DNA of 64,000 nt from Herpetosiphonaceae bacterium. GTDB taxonomy: Bacteria > Chloroflexota > Chloroflexia > Chloroflexales > Kallotenuaceae. Positions 9,232-19,323 of this stretch are shown piece after piece; position 1 is the stretch's first letter, and the number at the start of each line of letters is the position of its first letter. Below the pieces are notes generated by a model. The model ran no database searches and had not been told where the DNA came from. It worked only from the letters and a program-made list of their open reading frames with translations. The stretch covers positions 1 through 64,000 of the forward strand of contig JACDGP010000003.1 of NCBI GenBank assembly GCA_013821605.1. Reading direction: 5' to 3'. A program made the position numbers and the translations under genes.

Positions 9232-10446
9232 CTACAGCCCCGCCGCGTCTCGTAATTCTTCGGTTTTATCGGTGCGTTCCCAGGGGGCATCGATATCGTG
9301 CCGACCAAAATGGCCATACGAGGCCGTCTTTTGGTAGATCGGGCGGCGCAGATCAAGGTCACGGATAATTGCACCGGGGCGTAGATCGAAGTGCATGTCG
9401 ATAATGCGCCGCAACTCCTCGTCGGCAATTTTGCCGGTGCCGAAGGTCTCGAAGGAGATCGACAACGGCTTGGCAACGCCGATGGCATAGCTGAGCTGGA
9501 GTTCGAAGCGGTCGGCCAGACCGGCGGCTACAATATTTTTAGCGACATAGCGCGCGGCATAGGCGGCTGAGCGGTCAACTTTGGTCGGATCTTTGCCTGA
9601 GAAGGCACCACCACCGTGGCGGGCGATGCCACCATAGCTATCTACGATGATCTTGCGGCCGGTGAGGCCGGCATCGCCCATGGGTCCGCCGACTACAAAG
9701 CGACCGGTCGGGTTAACGAAGTACTTGGTTTTGTCGTCAAGCAGTTCGGCCGGCATGACGGCTTTGATAACGTACTGCAGCACATCGTCGCGAATTTGCT
9801 GTTGTGAGACTTGTGCATCGTGTTGAGCTGAGACCAGTACCGTATCGACGCGCACCGGCTTGCCGTGGGCATATTCAACCGTGACCTGCGCTTTGCCATC
9901 AGGCCGTAGGTATGGCAGTTGCCCCGATTTACGCACGTCGCTTAGGCGCCGTGTCAAGCGGTGGGCCAGGGAGATCGTCAGCGGCATGAACTCTTCCGAC
10001 TCGTTGCAGGCGAAGCCAAACATCATGCCCTGGTCGCCGGCACCGACTGCCTCGACCTCGGCTTCGGACATCGTGCCGATCTTGGCTTCCAGTGCTTTGT
10101 CGACACCCTGGGCGATGTCGGGTGACTGGTCGTGCAGCGCGACGATCACACCGCAGGTGGCAGCGTCGAAGCCATAGTCACTGTTGGTATAGCCAATCTC
10201 ACGGATCACGCGTCGCACAATGTCCTGGACCGGGACATAGGCCTCCGCCGTCACTTCGCCCAGCACGACCACCAGACCGGTCGTCGTCGCGGTCTCACAA
10301 GCGACGCGACCGTTGGGATCCTTCGCCAGAATCGCGTCCAGAATCGCATCCGAAATTTGGTCGCAAATCTTATCGGGATGGCCCTCAGTCACCGACTCCG
10401 AGGTCAGGAAGAGCTGGGGGGCATCCGTAAACGTTGTTCCACTCAT
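9232..10446 (-). CDS. metK: S-adenosylmethionine synthetase
   Basis: Makes S-adenosylmethionine from methionine and ATP; cytoplasmic homotetramer. The 404-residue protein is full length and has [13 protein letters not shown]-type N-terminal motif, [12 protein letters not shown] (adenosyl binding), and the P-loop-like [19 protein letters not shown]. It is the last gene of a four-gene minus-strand operon led by a SAM-I riboswitch, starting 23 bases after the ahcY stop. Regulation by its own product through that riboswitch is the natural reading. Confidence 0.97.
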
Positions 10447-10469: not shown

Positions 10470-11735
<1,266 letters not shown>

Positions 11736-11765: not shown

Positions 11766-12746
11766 TCAGTAGCTTACGGCTACCGGCTTCTCAAAAAGGG
11801 CTTCTACGGCAGCATCGCTGCCGAAGTTCTCACGATAGCGCGCGAGGAACTCGGCCTGGGTATAGGCGTGTTGTTGTGGTCCAGCGTGCTCAATGGCATA
11901 AACAGCGGTGAGAGCGGCGATGCGCCCACAGGTGGCCCACGGCAAACCGTTGGCGATCCCTTTAACGAGGCCCGCCCGGAAGGCGTCTCCCGCCCCCGTG
12001 GGGTTAATCACTTCGCGTGGCTTAGCTGCTGGGATGATATATTCCTGGCCGTCGGCAAAGATCGACGAGCCGGCCTCGCCTTTGGTCACGACACAGAACG
12101 GTACCGATTGGTACAGGTCAGCCTCACTCATACCCAGCTTTTCGGCCATCATGCCGAATTCGTAGTCGTTGCCGGCTAAGATGCGAGCACCGGCGAAACC
12201 CGCGCGTAGCTCTGCAGCTTGCATGCGAGGCATCTGCATTGATGGGTCATAAAGATAGGGAATGCCGAGACGGATACATTCAGCGGCATAATTGGCCATC
12301 GCCAGTGGATCGTTGGGCGAGATGATGACCAGATCTTCGCTGGTTAGCCCGTGGTTATCCAAGTGCAACGTGTGGGCCTGGCTCATGGCACCAGGATAGA
12401 AAGCGATGATCTGATTATCCTCAAGGTCGGTGTTAATAAAGCAGGAGGAGGTGAACTCACCGGGCACGACCGCGATGCTGCGCGTGTTAACACCCTGCTG
12501 CTCCAGCCATGCGCGGTAATCCCCAAAATCTTCGCCGACAGTGGCAACGACTTCCGGCTGCTCACCTAATAAGGCCAGATTAAAGGCAATATTAGCGGCC
12601 GTGCCGCCGCGCTGCTTTTTCATCGACTCCACCAGAAACGACACACTCAACGTATGTAATTTATCGGCCACAATATGCTCTTTAAAATGGCCGGGAAAGA
12701 CCATCAAATAATCATACGCGACCGAACCCGTCACGATAATCCGCAT
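11766..12746 (-). CDS. PfkB-family sugar/nucleoside kinase, probable adenosine kinase
   Basis: ATP-dependent kinase of the ribokinase family. The 326-residue protein has the N-terminal substrate-binding GGTAANIAFNLALLG (residues 47-61), SFLVESMKKQRGG, the P-site NPTGAGDAFRAGL with catalytic Asp254 and a complete C-terminus. The family includes adenosine, ribose and fructokinases; placement immediately upstream of ahcY in a SAM-riboswitch operon makes adenosine (released by AhcY) the most likely substrate, which is an inference. Removing adenosine would pull the AhcY reaction forward. Confidence 0.9.
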   Translation of the reverse strand: MRIIVTGSVAYDYLMVFPGHFKEHIVADKLHTLSVSFLVESMKKQRGGTAANIAFNLALLGEQPEVVATVGEDFGDYRAWLEQQGVNTRSIAVVPGEFTSSCFINTDLEDNQIIAFYPGAMSQAHTLHLDNHGLTSEDLVIISPNDPLAMANYAAECIRLGIPYLYDPSMQMPRMQAAELRAGFAGARILAGNDYEFGMMAEKLGMSEADLYQSVPFCVVTKGEAGSSIFADGQEYIIPAAKPREVINPTGAGDAFRAGLVKGIANGLPWATCGRIAALTAVYAIEHAGPQQHAYTQAEFLARYRENFGSDAAVEALFEKPVAVSY

Positions 12747-12764: not shown

Positions 12765-13787
12765 CTACTCAATGGCATAGGCTTGCCGTAATAACTCTGC
12801 TAGATCGGCAGTGAGCGTCAATACGCGTTCCGCCTCAGCCGGTGACAGCTGGTGTAAGGTGTCTTCCGGCATGATCATTGATGCACGTACCACGTATTCG
12901 ACCGGCAGGTCCGCCTCTTGGAGCGCTTTTAATACCGAGCCAAAACGCGCCGCCAGTCGACCCGCCGTCACCTGCCGTAAGCCGTCGCTGGTGACCGGCA
13001 CGATGCCCCAGCCAATCGCGCCTTTGCGCCGGATAAAGCTATGCAGATCGCCAGCCCAGCTTTCAGCCTGTTCCGGCGAGGGCAGGGTCACGCCCACGAC
13101 CTCGACCGTTTCGCTGGCCAACAACTGCTGTAGTTGCACGTGTGCTCCCACCCACACGCCACGTATCCCGCTATGCTGGCCCCAGACCTCGCTCAGCGCA
13201 TCGTGAACTGCCTCCCACGTCAGCGAAACAAACGGTGAATCGAGCAGCTCCAGATAGGGTTCATAGAGCCACTGCAGTACGGGTTTGTGCCAGTGGCCCA
13301 AGCGTTCGGCTTGGAATTGTAACTGGAGGTAGAGATGCTTGACGATGGCATCGACCATGGTTGGATCGCTCAAGGCCGACTCATACTCGGCGTTGATGAG
13401 CGTTAGTGCTAAGCTGACGGGCCCCCATTGCACGGTACTAAGCGCCTGTACCGACCGAAGTTTCCCGTCGCCTTGCTCAAGCTCTTCCAAGGCTGCCAAA
13501 TCCAGCGCGCGACTCTCGGTTTGGTGTTTAAGGTACGCGACGTATAACGTATCAAGCGCCGTTTGCATGTCGGGGCCGCCCCAGGTGGCATGGTCGCCAG
13601 CCATGGTGGCTCCCGGCAAATTGTGGAGTGCCAAGCGCAGCAAATCTTCACCATGCTGGTGAAGCAATGGAACCGGGGCCAGCTGGCGAAGCCGGGGCAG
13701 CACAACATCCCACAACTCCACCGTCGGGGGATGGGGCAGTGGTCCTAGGGCTGTTGGCAAACAATTCGGGCGAAACGGCAAGGGCAT
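12765..13787 (-). CDS. MetE-like/UROD-like TIM-barrel protein, first gene of the S-box operon
   Basis: A 340-residue soluble protein. Pattern similarity to cobalamin-independent methionine synthase catalytic-domain proteins (UROD/MetE-like superfamily) is seen in the order of segments: N-terminal TALGPLPHPP (residues 12-21), WGPVSLALTL (121-130), LYEPYLELLDSPFVSL (174-189) and GAIGWGIVPV (256-265). In typical members a HxCG zinc motif follows the EPYL segment by about 35 residues; here that place reads GVWVGAHVQL, so the usual Cys is missing. It may be a divergent methionine synthase or a non-catalytic/regulatory relative. The ATG at 13787 is forced by an in-frame stop two codons upstream; the ribosome site (GGTGGGAG) is rather distant. 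The next gene starts 18 bases downstream. Confidence 0.72.
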   Translation of the reverse strand: MPLPFRPNCLPTALGPLPHPPTVELWDVVLPRLRQLAPVPLLHQHGEDLLRLALHNLPGATMAGDHATWGGPDMQTALDTLYVAYLKHQTESRALDLAALEELEQGDGKLRSVQALSTVQWGPVSLALTLINAEYESALSDPTMVDAIVKHLYLQLQFQAERLGHWHKPVLQWLYEPYLELLDSPFVSLTWEAVHDALSEVWGQHSGIRGVWVGAHVQLQQLLASETVEVVGVTLPSPEQAESWAGDLHSFIRRKGAIGWGIVPVTSDGLRQVTAGRLAARFGSVLKALQEADLPVEYVVRASMIMPEDTLHQLSPAEAERVLTLTADLAELLRQAYAIE

Positions 13788-13839: not shown

Positions 13840-13868
13840 AAAAAAAAAGCCACTCAGCATGAGAGGCT
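13840..13868 (-). terminator. Riboswitch expression-platform terminator
   Basis: On the minus strand a stem AGCCTCTCA / TGAGTGGCT with a three-base loop and one mismatch is followed by nine T residues. The CTCTCAT of its 5' arm is also complementary to ATGAGAG at the 3' side of riboswitch helix P1, giving the competing antiterminator expected when SAM is absent. Confidence 0.93.
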
Positions 13869-13877
13869 ACGTACCAA

Positions 13878-13990
13878 CTCTCATCTTTCCGCACATGCGG
13901 CAGGATTTGGCACCTTGAACGCGTCCATTCTGGTATCGTCGCCGGTTGCCGGAGCTTCGCAGGGCCTGTCCCTCCGCTCCTCGCGATGAG
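13878..13990 (-). ncRNA. SAM-I (S-box) riboswitch aptamer
   Basis: Binds S-adenosylmethionine and turns the downstream operon off. On the minus strand the conserved S-box elements occur in order: P1 5' strand CTCATCGCGA, GGAGGGACAGGCCCTGCGAAG, the kink-turn and pseudoknot region CCGGCAACCGGC, AAGGTGCCAAATCCTGC and GGAAAGATGAGAG closing P1. CTCATC (13990-13985) pairs with GATGAG (13885-13880). It is followed by a terminator with a nine-T run, then by the MetE-like, kinase, ahcY and metK genes. This is one of the strongest calls in the window. Confidence 0.96.
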
Positions 13991-14012
13991 TCGCGTATTC
14001 ACTTGTTACGCA

Positions 14013-14099: not shown

Positions 14100-14948
14100 A
14101 TGACGATCATTACACAAAAAATGGTGCGTGCCTTTATTGAGGGGCGCTACTGGCAGCATCCTATTCGTGCGTGGCGGATCTTTCGGGCTGAAACGGCGCG
14201 CAAAAATTGGGGTTATAAGCAGGCCTGGGAAGCCGTGGGTCAGGATGCCGGCTGGACCTTTACGATGATGAACGGCAGCCCGGACGAAGCCACGTTGCAA
14301 CGGACGGGTGCAGCCATGGCGCGGCGCTTGGTTGATGCCCTGACGATCACATCCGCAGACCGTGTGTTGGAGGTGGGCTGTGGTGTGGCGCGGGTCGGGC
14401 GTGAGCTAGCACCCTTGGTACGGGAATGGCATGGTGCGGACATTTCGGCCCCAATCCTGCACATCGCCCGTCGCCGTACCGCCCACTTGCCCAACGTGTA
14501 TTTCCACGAGTTGAGTCGCACGAGCTTGCCTTTCGGTGATGACAGCTTCGACCGCGCCTACTCGCATCTGGTGATGTTCCACCTGGATAAAGAAGATATG
14601 TTTGGCTATCTCCAGGAGTTGGCCCGCGTGCTCGTGCCGGGCGGGCTGGTTTATTTCGATACCTGGAATCTGCTCCATCCGCAAGGTTGGGAACGCTTTC
14701 TATGGGAGCGTGAGCACCATCGCGACAAAGCGGTGAAACCGGCTCATCGTAACCAGTTTGCAACGGTGGAAGAGGTGCGCCTGTATGTGGAAAAGGCTGG
14801 TTTAGTGCCGTTGGCGGTGCTCAACGAAAGCTTTTGGCTGCAGGTTATTGCCGCTAAGCCCGGCCCCTCCGTCGATCTTGACAGCCTGCACAACTCGCTA
14901 CAGCAGTTGGAGGCCCTGGTACCGCACGGTCATTGGTATTACGAGTGA
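14100..14948 (+). CDS. Class I SAM-dependent methyltransferase
   Basis: Transfers a methyl group from SAM to an unidentified substrate. In the 282-residue protein, SAM-binding motif I is DRVLEVGCGVARVGREL (about residues 85-101), motif II region GADIS follows, then FDRAYSHLVMFHL (motif III/post-I) and VPGGLVYFDTWNLL. There is no membrane segment. The weak AAGGG before the ATG at 14100 is the only ribosome site. It is transcribed divergently from the SAM operon, sharing the intergenic region, and its stop overlaps the convergent AlaX gene by ten bases. Substrate type (lipid, small molecule) cannot be told. Confidence 0.87.
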   Translation: MTIITQKMVRAFIEGRYWQHPIRAWRIFRAETARKNWGYKQAWEAVGQDAGWTFTMMNGSPDEATLQRTGAAMARRLVDALTITSADRVLEVGCGVARVGRELAPLVREWHGADISAPILHIARRRTAHLPNVYFHELSRTSLPFGDDSFDRAYSHLVMFHLDKEDMFGYLQELARVLVPGGLVYFDTWNLLHPQGWERFLWEREHHRDKAVKPAHRNQFATVEEVRLYVEKAGLVPLAVLNESFWLQVIAAKPGPSVDLDSLHNSLQQLEALVPHGHWYYE

Positions 14949-16153
14949 ACATCCTGCAGAGCTTCGACGGCGGCGGCTAGCGCCACATCGATCAAAGCAA
15001 CATTCGGCCCACCTCCCTGAGCAGCATCGGCTTTGCCACCACCTTTGCCACCGACGATGGCGGCAGCAGTGCGGAGTAGGGCACCCATATCGGGGTGAAG
15101 TGTGGTGGCACGGCTAAAGACGAACTGCGCTTTGTCACCGGCCAGAGCGAGCAGGGCGATCCCGCCGCCGTCAGCGATGGCACGGGCGAGCAGACGCACT
15201 TCGTCGAGTGGGCGGTCATGGAGCACCTGGGCTACAACCGGCATGCCGTTGATCTCCGTAGCTGCAGCCAAGGAGGCCTGCGCTTCGTAGACACATAGCT
15301 CGCGACGTGCCGACGCCAAAGCCTTGCGACTTGTCTCCTCGGCGAGGCGTACCCGTTGCAGGGCAGCGGGTAGATCAACGGCGGCCACGCTGAGCTCGTT
15401 CGCTAAGGTCGTGATGATCGCCGTCTTCGCGCGATAATCATGTAACGCACGGCTGCCGCAGATAAACTCGATGCGCAGGCTGTCGCCCCGCCGTTCCCAA
15501 CGACGGAGGGCGACGATCCCAACTTCGCCCGTGCGGCGAGGATGAGTACCACCGCAGGCCGAGTGATCGACATCACCCGCCGATACGATGCGAACGCGAT
15601 CATGAACCTTCGGCGGCCGGCGTAGCGCCAGTGAGGCGAGTTCTTCGGGCGTGACAAAGCGCACGTGTACCGGTAGATCATCGTAAATGACCCGGTTGGT
15701 CCATTCTTCGGCTGCTACCAATTGGTCCGGACTAAGGCTCGTATTTTCGATATCGACCGTACAGCTTTCTTCCCCTAAATGCACCGCTACGGTCGGCGCG
15801 CCAAAGAGCTGCTCGAAGGCGGCCGACAAGAGGTGCTGGCCGTGATGCTGCTGCATGAAGTCGAAACGACGCGGCCAGTCGATCAGGCCGTGCACCTCGT
15901 CAGCGAGTAGTGGGGCAGGGAGGTGGTGCCATACTATCTCGTCTGCGACCTGCACATCGGTCACCGGTACCCCGTTTAGGGTGCCATGATCGGGCAATTG
16001 ACCACCGCCCTCGGGATAAAAGGCCGAGCGGTCGAGGGCGACCAGCCAGTGATCCTCGGTCTGATGGCGGGCAACGACCTGTGCCGTGAACTCCTGCAGA
16101 TAGGGATCGGTGAAGTACAAGCGCACGGTGGGCGCGATCTGGTGAGTGGTCAT
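14939..16153 (-). CDS. Alanyl-tRNA editing protein, AlaX-L type with DHHA1 domain
   Basis: Freestanding trans-editing enzyme that deacylates mischarged tRNA(Ala). The 404-residue protein resembles the C-terminal half of AlaRS: an N-terminal beta-barrel (FYPEGGGQLPDHGTL), the editing zinc site H103xxxH107 in QQHHGQHLLSA and the CGGTH motif, and a C-terminal DHHA1-like domain with GGKGGGKADAAQGGG. It lacks the aminoacylation domain. It starts only six bases after the gltX stop, so both tRNA-quality genes form one minus-strand unit. Confidence 0.92.
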   Translation of the reverse strand: MTTHQIAPTVRLYFTDPYLQEFTAQVVARHQTEDHWLVALDRSAFYPEGGGQLPDHGTLNGVPVTDVQVADEIVWHHLPAPLLADEVHGLIDWPRRFDFMQQHHGQHLLSAAFEQLFGAPTVAVHLGEESCTVDIENTSLSPDQLVAAEEWTNRVIYDDLPVHVRFVTPEELASLALRRPPKVHDRVRIVSAGDVDHSACGGTHPRRTGEVGIVALRRWERRGDSLRIEFICGSRALHDYRAKTAIITTLANELSVAAVDLPAALQRVRLAEETSRKALASARRELCVYEAQASLAAATEINGMPVVAQVLHDRPLDEVRLLARAIADGGGIALLALAGDKAQFVFSRATTLHPDMGALLRTAAAIVGGKGGGKADAAQGGGPNVALIDVALAAAVEALQDVHS

Positions 16154-18788: not shown

Positions 18789-19052
18789 TTAGGCTGCTTC
18801 CCGCGCTTGCTCTTGCAGCCAGTGAGTAATCAGTGCTTCCGCTGATACATGCTGAGTCTTGGCAATAGCTACGACTTTCTTCATGAGGTCTGCATCGATC
18901 GCAACTAAATAGTGTCGTCGCTTGATGTCAACATCAAAGGCAGCTTCAGCCATGTGTTCAACGTATTCACCCATATCATGAGTGTCGAAAAAGTCCGTAA
19001 GCTCCTGGATAGACTCAAATTGCGGAAGCGACGAAGATTTATTTTCTGCCAT
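18789..19052 (-). CDS. brnA: BrnA/CopG-type antitoxin
   Basis: An 87-residue protein beginning MAENKSSSLPQFESIQ. The middle FFDTHDMGEYVEHM and FDVDIKRRHYLVAIDADLMKKVVAIAK, followed by HVSAEALITHWL, is the pattern of short ribbon-helix-helix antitoxins found next to BrnT toxins. The start at 19052 overlaps the end of the toxin gene by 14 bases, the normal toxin-first order of BrnTA. It would neutralise the toxin and repress the shared promoter, both from family knowledge. Confidence 0.82.
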   Translation of the reverse strand: MAENKSSSLPQFESIQELTDFFDTHDMGEYVEHMAEAAFDVDIKRRHYLVAIDADLMKKVVAIAKTQHVSAEALITHWLQEQAREAA

Positions 19053-19323
19053 ACCAGTTACGCTCCTTCGTAGCCATGTCTCTAGCACTCAAAATCAAGG
19101 CTTCTTTCGCTAGCTTGTAGATAAATAGCACAGTTAAGTACCTTCCAGCGTCCGTTTGGCCCAACGCCATGTACACATCCTCACCAGTTCGATCACCAGA
19201 CGCGATAAAGCGAAACTTGCGCGCATTATACAAAGCTTCCTCAACTTCCTCTGGCTCCACATGATGCTTAACCGCAAGTTTCTCGACGATCACCTCAAGC
19301 CATATGATACTCTCAATTCTCAT
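19039..19323 (-). CDS. brnT: BrnT-family toxin
   Basis: A 94-residue RelE-fold-type predicted ribonuclease. The N-terminal WLEVIVEKLAVKHHVEPEEVEEAL, the central DRTGEDVYMALGQTDAGRYL and the C-terminal LILSARDMATKERNWYGRK are characteristic of BrnT-like toxins, which cleave RNA and stop translation. It precedes and overlaps its antitoxin gene. The module sits beside an ATPase remnant (19349-19699), a typical accessory position. Confidence 0.83.
   Translation of the reverse strand: MRIESIIWLEVIVEKLAVKHHVEPEEVEEALYNARKFRFIASGDRTGEDVYMALGQTDAGRYLTVLFIYKLAKEALILSARDMATKERNWYGRK

Follow-up and report, generated by a model that had tools for sequence, protein, structure and literature searches.

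A divergent zinc-less MesB-like protein at the head of a SAM-I riboswitch-controlled methyl-cycle operon in a Herpetosiphonaceae bacterium

The first gene of an activated-methyl-cycle operon in a Herpetosiphonaceae bacterium encodes a 340-residue protein that, judged by its sequence, is a divergent (WGVD) member of the already reported, functionally unsolved zinc-less MesB-like group. The open reading frame starts with ATG and occupies positions 12765-13787 on the minus strand of the window, the 64-kb stretch of contig JACDGP010000003.1 analysed here. Very probably, this protein is no longer a methionine synthase. The explanation that we favour overall, and to which we give an even chance, is that it derives from MesB and, having once been a methionine synthase, would now serve the methyl cycle as a partner protein without catalytic activity.

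The riboswitch, the MesB-like gene, pfkB, ahcY and metK follow one another in this order, all on the minus strand:
13878..13992, minus strand: SAM-I (S-box) riboswitch aptamer, RF00162 (cmscan 79.3 bits, gathering cut-off 44.4, E 5e-17)
13859..13884, minus strand: antiterminator pairing of AUGAGAG (13878-13884) with CUCUCAU (13859-13865, inside the terminator), read from the sequence
13840..13867, minus strand: intrinsic terminator, GCC-U-CUCA/UGAG-U-GGC (13849-13867) and nine U (13840-13848), read from the sequence
12765..13787, minus strand: zinc-less MesB-like (core-MetE-like) protein, 340 residues (ORF, homologues, AlphaFold2, Foldseek, alignment, tree)
11766..12746, minus strand: pfkB-family kinase (Pfam PF00294, E 6.6e-46)
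10470..11732, minus strand: ahcY, adenosylhomocysteinase (TIGR00936, 637.6 bits versus a cut-off of 497.6)
9232..10446, minus strand: metK, methionine adenosyltransferase (TIGR01034, 601.7 bits versus a cut-off of 309.4)

The original prediction of an S-box riboswitch over a SAM-cycle operon is borne out by the aptamer, with pfkB-ahcY-metK downstream. The aptamer lies about 90 bases 5′ of the ATG of the MesB-like gene, with the terminator between the two, and together with its expression platform (terminator and antiterminator strands) it defines a SAM-I riboswitch-controlled operon. The folded minimum-free-energy structure also shows a hairpin at the place of the terminator (13849-13867), which a simple consensus terminator scan missed, the stem mismatch being the probable cause. 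Alternatively, GAUGAG (13880-13885) can pair with CUCAUC (13985-13990), the 5′ side of the aptamer P1; as this P1 strand overlaps the antiterminator strand, P1 and the antiterminator are mutually exclusive. In S-box riboswitches, SAM stabilises P1, the terminator forms and the switch is off. Given this mechanism and the anatomy seen here, SAM is predicted to switch the operon off. The nearest PDB entry to the kinase is 3b1n, deposited as a putative ribokinase (E 1.6e-70), with the adenosine kinase entries 4o1g and 2pkf at E 3e-63, so that the operon reads as an activated-methyl cycle (MetK, AhcY and adenosine kinase) with the MesB-like protein at its head. Elsewhere in the window, two small overlapping ORFs (18789-19323, minus strand) look, on inspection by eye, like a toxin-antitoxin pair of the BrnT/BrnA type, and a 404-residue ORF adjoining gltX (14939-16153, minus strand) looks like a stand-alone alanyl-tRNA editing protein of the AlaX type.

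Taken alone, the protein gives no Pfam or NCBIfam match and no meaningful one to a PDB sequence, nor did a PDB profile search yield anything useful. A contig-level genome scan was likewise empty when run with the single protein, and gave one metagenome-assembled genome when run with a two-row alignment. A search of 400 genomes of the phylum found relatives in 81, nearly all of them aligned over most of their length (best E 7e-65 outside the protein's own genome), and they include a Dehalococcoides-like MesB (L021; 27% over residues 9-337). The AlphaFold2 model, obtained with a 26-row alignment, has a pLDDT of 91.5 and a pTM of 0.91. Foldseek ranks Shewanella MesD (PDB entry 3rpd) first for this model (E 6.5e-8), followed by many MetE structures and then by uroporphyrinogen decarboxylases (UROD). 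With TM-scores of only about 0.6 to the best matches, the likeness of the model to MesD and MetE appears real but distant. Like MesB, the protein is a MetE/UROD-type barrel of about 340 residues without a folate domain. A core-MetE-like fold had been proposed from the segments TALGPLPHPP (12-21), GPVSLAL (122-128), EPYL (176-179) and WGIVP (260-264), all of which are present in that order, and the Foldseek comparison named at the time as a check returned a barrel of the MetE/MesD/UROD type rather than an unrelated fold.

In Dehalococcoides mccartyi MesB, zinc is bound by His215, Cys217, Asp236 and Cys312 (PMC7005905), while Ser15 and Asp177 contact homocysteine (PMC7857596). The codons at the equivalent places of the window gene are as follows:
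13260..13265, minus strand: Y175-E176; Y175 replaces the homocysteine-binding Asp, and all zinc-less relatives share E176
13152..13154, minus strand: W212, where Dehalococcoides MesB has the zinc ligand H215 (alignments)
13146..13148, minus strand: G214, where MesB has the zinc ligand C217 (alignments)
12861..12863, minus strand: D309, in the motif IMPEDTL, where MesB has the zinc ligand C312 (D309 is invariant in the protein's own family)

The place of the HxCG motif does read GVWVGAHVQL, as had been noticed from the sequence, and the loss goes further than was then seen. Besides the two ligands of this motif, D236 is replaced by V233 or T234, depending on the alignment, and C312 by D309, so that the ligand set H, C, D/E, C reads WG(V/T)D; both homocysteine contacts are also replaced (S15 by P16 and D177 by Y175). 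E176, expected at the metal site, directly follows the position of the homocysteine-binding Asp; its conservation stands, but it is not among the zinc ligands named for MesB.

The order mesB-like-pfkB-ahcY-metK is found in line in all 19 loci of the taxonomic order that were fetched with long flanks, with the MesB-like gene directly before pfkB. In about 40 genomes sampled from the order, the same gene occupies this operon slot, never with an intact site. A Dehalococcoides-like genome shows the arrangement mtnA-mtnP-mesB-(kinase-like)-ahcY-metK. Because its mesB occupies the matching slot, the zinc-less gene is, on gene order, best described as the positional orthologue of true mesB and not as a stray duplicate; of the 'paralogue with a new role' that the original prediction offered as one option, the new role thus fits better than the word paralogue. 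The riboswitch is present in 24 of the 29 loci of the order with upstream sequence, the window included; L064, L065, L067, L070 and L073 are without it. In the 16 loci read, and also in L065, the MesB-like gene is preceded by mtnA (methylthioribose-1-phosphate isomerase, TIGR00512), an arrangement seen in five loci of the protein's own family (two with an identical protein). In the window genome, mtnA is absent from the operon, which is why the MesB-like gene heads it, directly after the riboswitch. The description of the gene as leading an S-box operon therefore holds here and only here, mtnA coming first in the relatives. The only mtnA-like gene found in this genome lies on another contig (L095, G000:C100:4529-5554); it is 53% identical to the operon-type copy of G150, is followed by a transketolase-like gene and shows no riboswitch. 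It is probably a replacement copy.

The corrinoid protein of the Wood-Ljungdahl pathway is the methyl source that MesB is thought to use. Among the aligned MesB-like proteins with a genome in the 400-genome set, a strong match to the corrinoid iron-sulfur protein CdhD (more than 200 bits, a threshold set after seeing the list) was found in 38 of the 40 genomes whose main copy reads HCDC (or HEDC), the exceptions being G154 and G334, and in none of the 41 zinc-less genomes. The window genome has no strong corrinoid-protein match; where MesB would be accompanied by AcsC/AcsD, it gives just one marginal match, to PF03599 (E 8e-4). In the tree, 40 zinc-less members of the order form one group (support 93/86), which takes in Chloroflexus- and Roseiflexus-type members (types assigned from their FSHG and YCDQ signatures); a QSDA protein in G382 (L022) falls outside and represents a separate loss. 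With one main and one independent loss, the association with CdhD rests on about two independent losses rather than on 80 points. The residues at the ligand places vary by family within the order (WxxD, FSHG, CADS, ATxQ and YCDQ). Roseiflexus-like members (YCDQ) retain a Cys and an Asp there, and on this basis some of them could still bind metal. The QSDA protein comes from another family of the phylum, and its gene immediately follows a SAM riboswitch. That G382 might rely on this zinc-less protein as its sole methionine synthase was considered and rejected, as it encodes a protein of the homocysteine methyltransferase-MTHFR type. In six genomes of the order (G166, G335, G323, G341, G353 and G198), a second MesB-like protein (L075, L076, L077, L078, L079 and L080, respectively) keeps HCC, D and CG, and despite this no strong corrinoid iron-sulfur protein match was found in them.

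MetH is encoded by 58 of 60 genomes of the order. That of the window genome (1210 residues) scores above the TIGR02082 cut-off and contains all five Pfam domains; the genome further encodes a homocysteine methyltransferase-MTHFR fusion. Methionine synthesis is thus covered in this host, which rules out the window protein as its sole methionine synthase. The same genome has two more short MetE-like proteins that keep the HxC motif (L083:4126-5175 and L084:2664-3812), one of them encoded in a cluster of dehydrogenase-like genes; by sequence, both are likely to be catabolic.

The dN/dS of the MesB-like gene (Nei-Gojobori, within-genus pairs) is about 0.02-0.31, several dS values being saturated; in the pairs with usable dS it lies well below 1, which indicates purifying selection. 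In the same pairs the ratio is generally higher than for pfkB and ahcY and sometimes equal to that for mtnA, and identity to the window copy across the order is about 22-40% for the MesB-like protein, compared with 52-64% for pfkB and 71-85% for ahcY. This faster evolution than that of the operon partners also fits weak constraint. The protein's own family (six loci, five different sequences) keeps P16, W173, Y175, E176, W212, L235, P236, P238, Q240 and MPED 306-309. Its conserved residues are enriched at the predicted mouth of the barrel (22/48 versus 62/291, p 5e-4), as are those of the zinc-bearing proteins by the same measure (25/48 at the mouth versus 49/285 elsewhere), whereas several other families of the order show it less strongly or not at all; the mouth was defined by us and the sequences are related, so that such p-values are guides only. 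Mapped on the model, the pocket of the window's family thus appears to be remodelled but conserved.

We propose that the ancestor of the order lost the corrinoid donor and that MetH took over the making of methionine. The zinc and homocysteine sites would then have been lost, the gene being retained in its SAM-controlled operon. Its present role would be non-catalytic: the remodelled mouth pocket may bind a metabolite of the cycle (methionine, homocysteine, SAH, adenosine or similar), and/or the protein may bind the co-transcribed AhcY, adenosine kinase or MetK, with a tuning or scaffolding effect. Such a partner or ligand-binding role in the SAM cycle is a candidate that we judge about as apt to be right as wrong. 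The uneven mouth enrichment and the replacement residues, which differ between families, count against it, as a single shared function may not exist; so do the fast evolution of the protein and the ligand-type residues kept by the Roseiflexus-like members. We suggest more tentatively that, in this lineage, the barrel inherited from MesB now serves as a dedicated SAM-cycle sensor or a new metal-free enzyme; its rebuilt pocket (P16, Y175-E176, W212, LPxP and MPED) would be conserved in the window's family, and other families of the order would have rebuilt the same pocket differently.

The main rival to a non-catalytic partner is a new enzyme, its barrel rebuilt for some other reaction that needs no metal and acts on a sulphur or adenosyl metabolite, a reading that we regard as possible but rather doubtful. 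UROD-type barrels can act without zinc, and the mouth set kept in the protein's own family (including LPxP 235-238) and the retention of E176 in all zinc-less relatives speak for it. The usual upstream neighbour, mtnA, is moreover a methionine-salvage gene. However, the candidate catalytic residues are not common to the families of the order, which would be unusual for one conserved activity, and mtnA already adjoined mesB-type operons with an intact MesB; the link need not be new, and its value as a sign of a new salvage function is weakened.

The gene might instead be a vestige, a former mesB kept only for its place between co-translated genes with weak constraint on the protein. We consider this unlikely. 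It is the fastest-evolving gene of the operon, its ligands were lost in many different ways and it overlaps or closely adjoins its neighbours in several genomes. Yet every within-genus pair with usable dS gives a dN/dS far below 1, no stop falls inside the match in any genome of the order in the search, and the gene persists across four families, with its pocket residues conserved in its own.

Still less probable is a methionine synthase whose metal site is altered or empty and that would continue to methylate homocysteine, the other option of the original prediction. Fold, operon and SAM control would suit it, and Roseiflexus-like members retain two ligand-type residues; against it stand the loss of all four ligands and of both homocysteine contacts, the host's own MetH and homocysteine methyltransferase-MTHFR fusion, and the lack of a strong match for the corrinoid donor protein. 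Finally, an unrelated TIM barrel that is MetE-like by short motifs alone might be imagined for a protein with no meaningful Pfam, NCBIfam or PDB sequence match of its own, but is ruled out for practical purposes by the significant full-length homology to the Dehalococcoides-type MesB, the shared operon slot and the Foldseek ranking.

Price, Deutschbauer and Arkin reported MesB-like proteins without the zinc residues in Chloroflexales (Chloroflexus and Roseiflexus), with FSHG, YCDQ or YREQ in place of HCDC; they proposed another function for this subfamily, whose hosts are without the Wood-Ljungdahl pathway (Price et al., 2021; PMC7857596). Their FSHG and YCDQ patterns recur among the members of the order aligned here. 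The window protein resembles this subfamily as a MesB homologue without zinc ligands, by its grouping in the tree, by a host with another methionine synthase and no strong match to the Wood-Ljungdahl corrinoid protein and, we infer, by belonging to the same order. It differs in reading WG(V/T)D and not FSHG, YCDQ or YREQ, in its high divergence, and in the position of its gene directly after the riboswitch in an operon without mtnA. With D. mccartyi MesB/core-MetE (cbdbA481; PMC7005905) it shares a half-size MetE-type barrel without a folate domain and an operon with ahcY and metK, whereas H215, C217, D236, C312, S15 and D177 are all replaced and the host has MetH and no strong CoFeSP match. 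Shewanella MesD (PDB entry 3rpd) and the C-terminal domain of MetE are its best Foldseek matches, yet the window protein lacks their zinc and homocysteine residues and is only about 10-14% identical to them in structural alignments. The N-terminal domain of canonical MetE is a precedent, a MetE-type barrel that arose from the catalytic barrel and was repurposed for folate binding (PMC7005905); unlike that domain, the window protein stands alone, in the slot of MesB. Among the papers searched, none on the zinc-less MesB-like group went beyond Price et al. (2021). New here are the order-wide synteny, the one main and one independent loss, the purifying selection, the remodelled pocket conserved within the protein's own family and the loss of mtnA from the operon head.

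Throughout the order, then, an activated-methyl-cycle operon that is mostly controlled by SAM keeps a barrel of the methionine-synthase type that can hardly be a methionine synthase any longer. The fate of a central enzyme that loses its methyl donor, whether it becomes a pseudoenzyme or acquires a new function, can be studied cleanly on this example, and the annotation of zinc-less MesB-like genes as methionine synthases is probably wrong.
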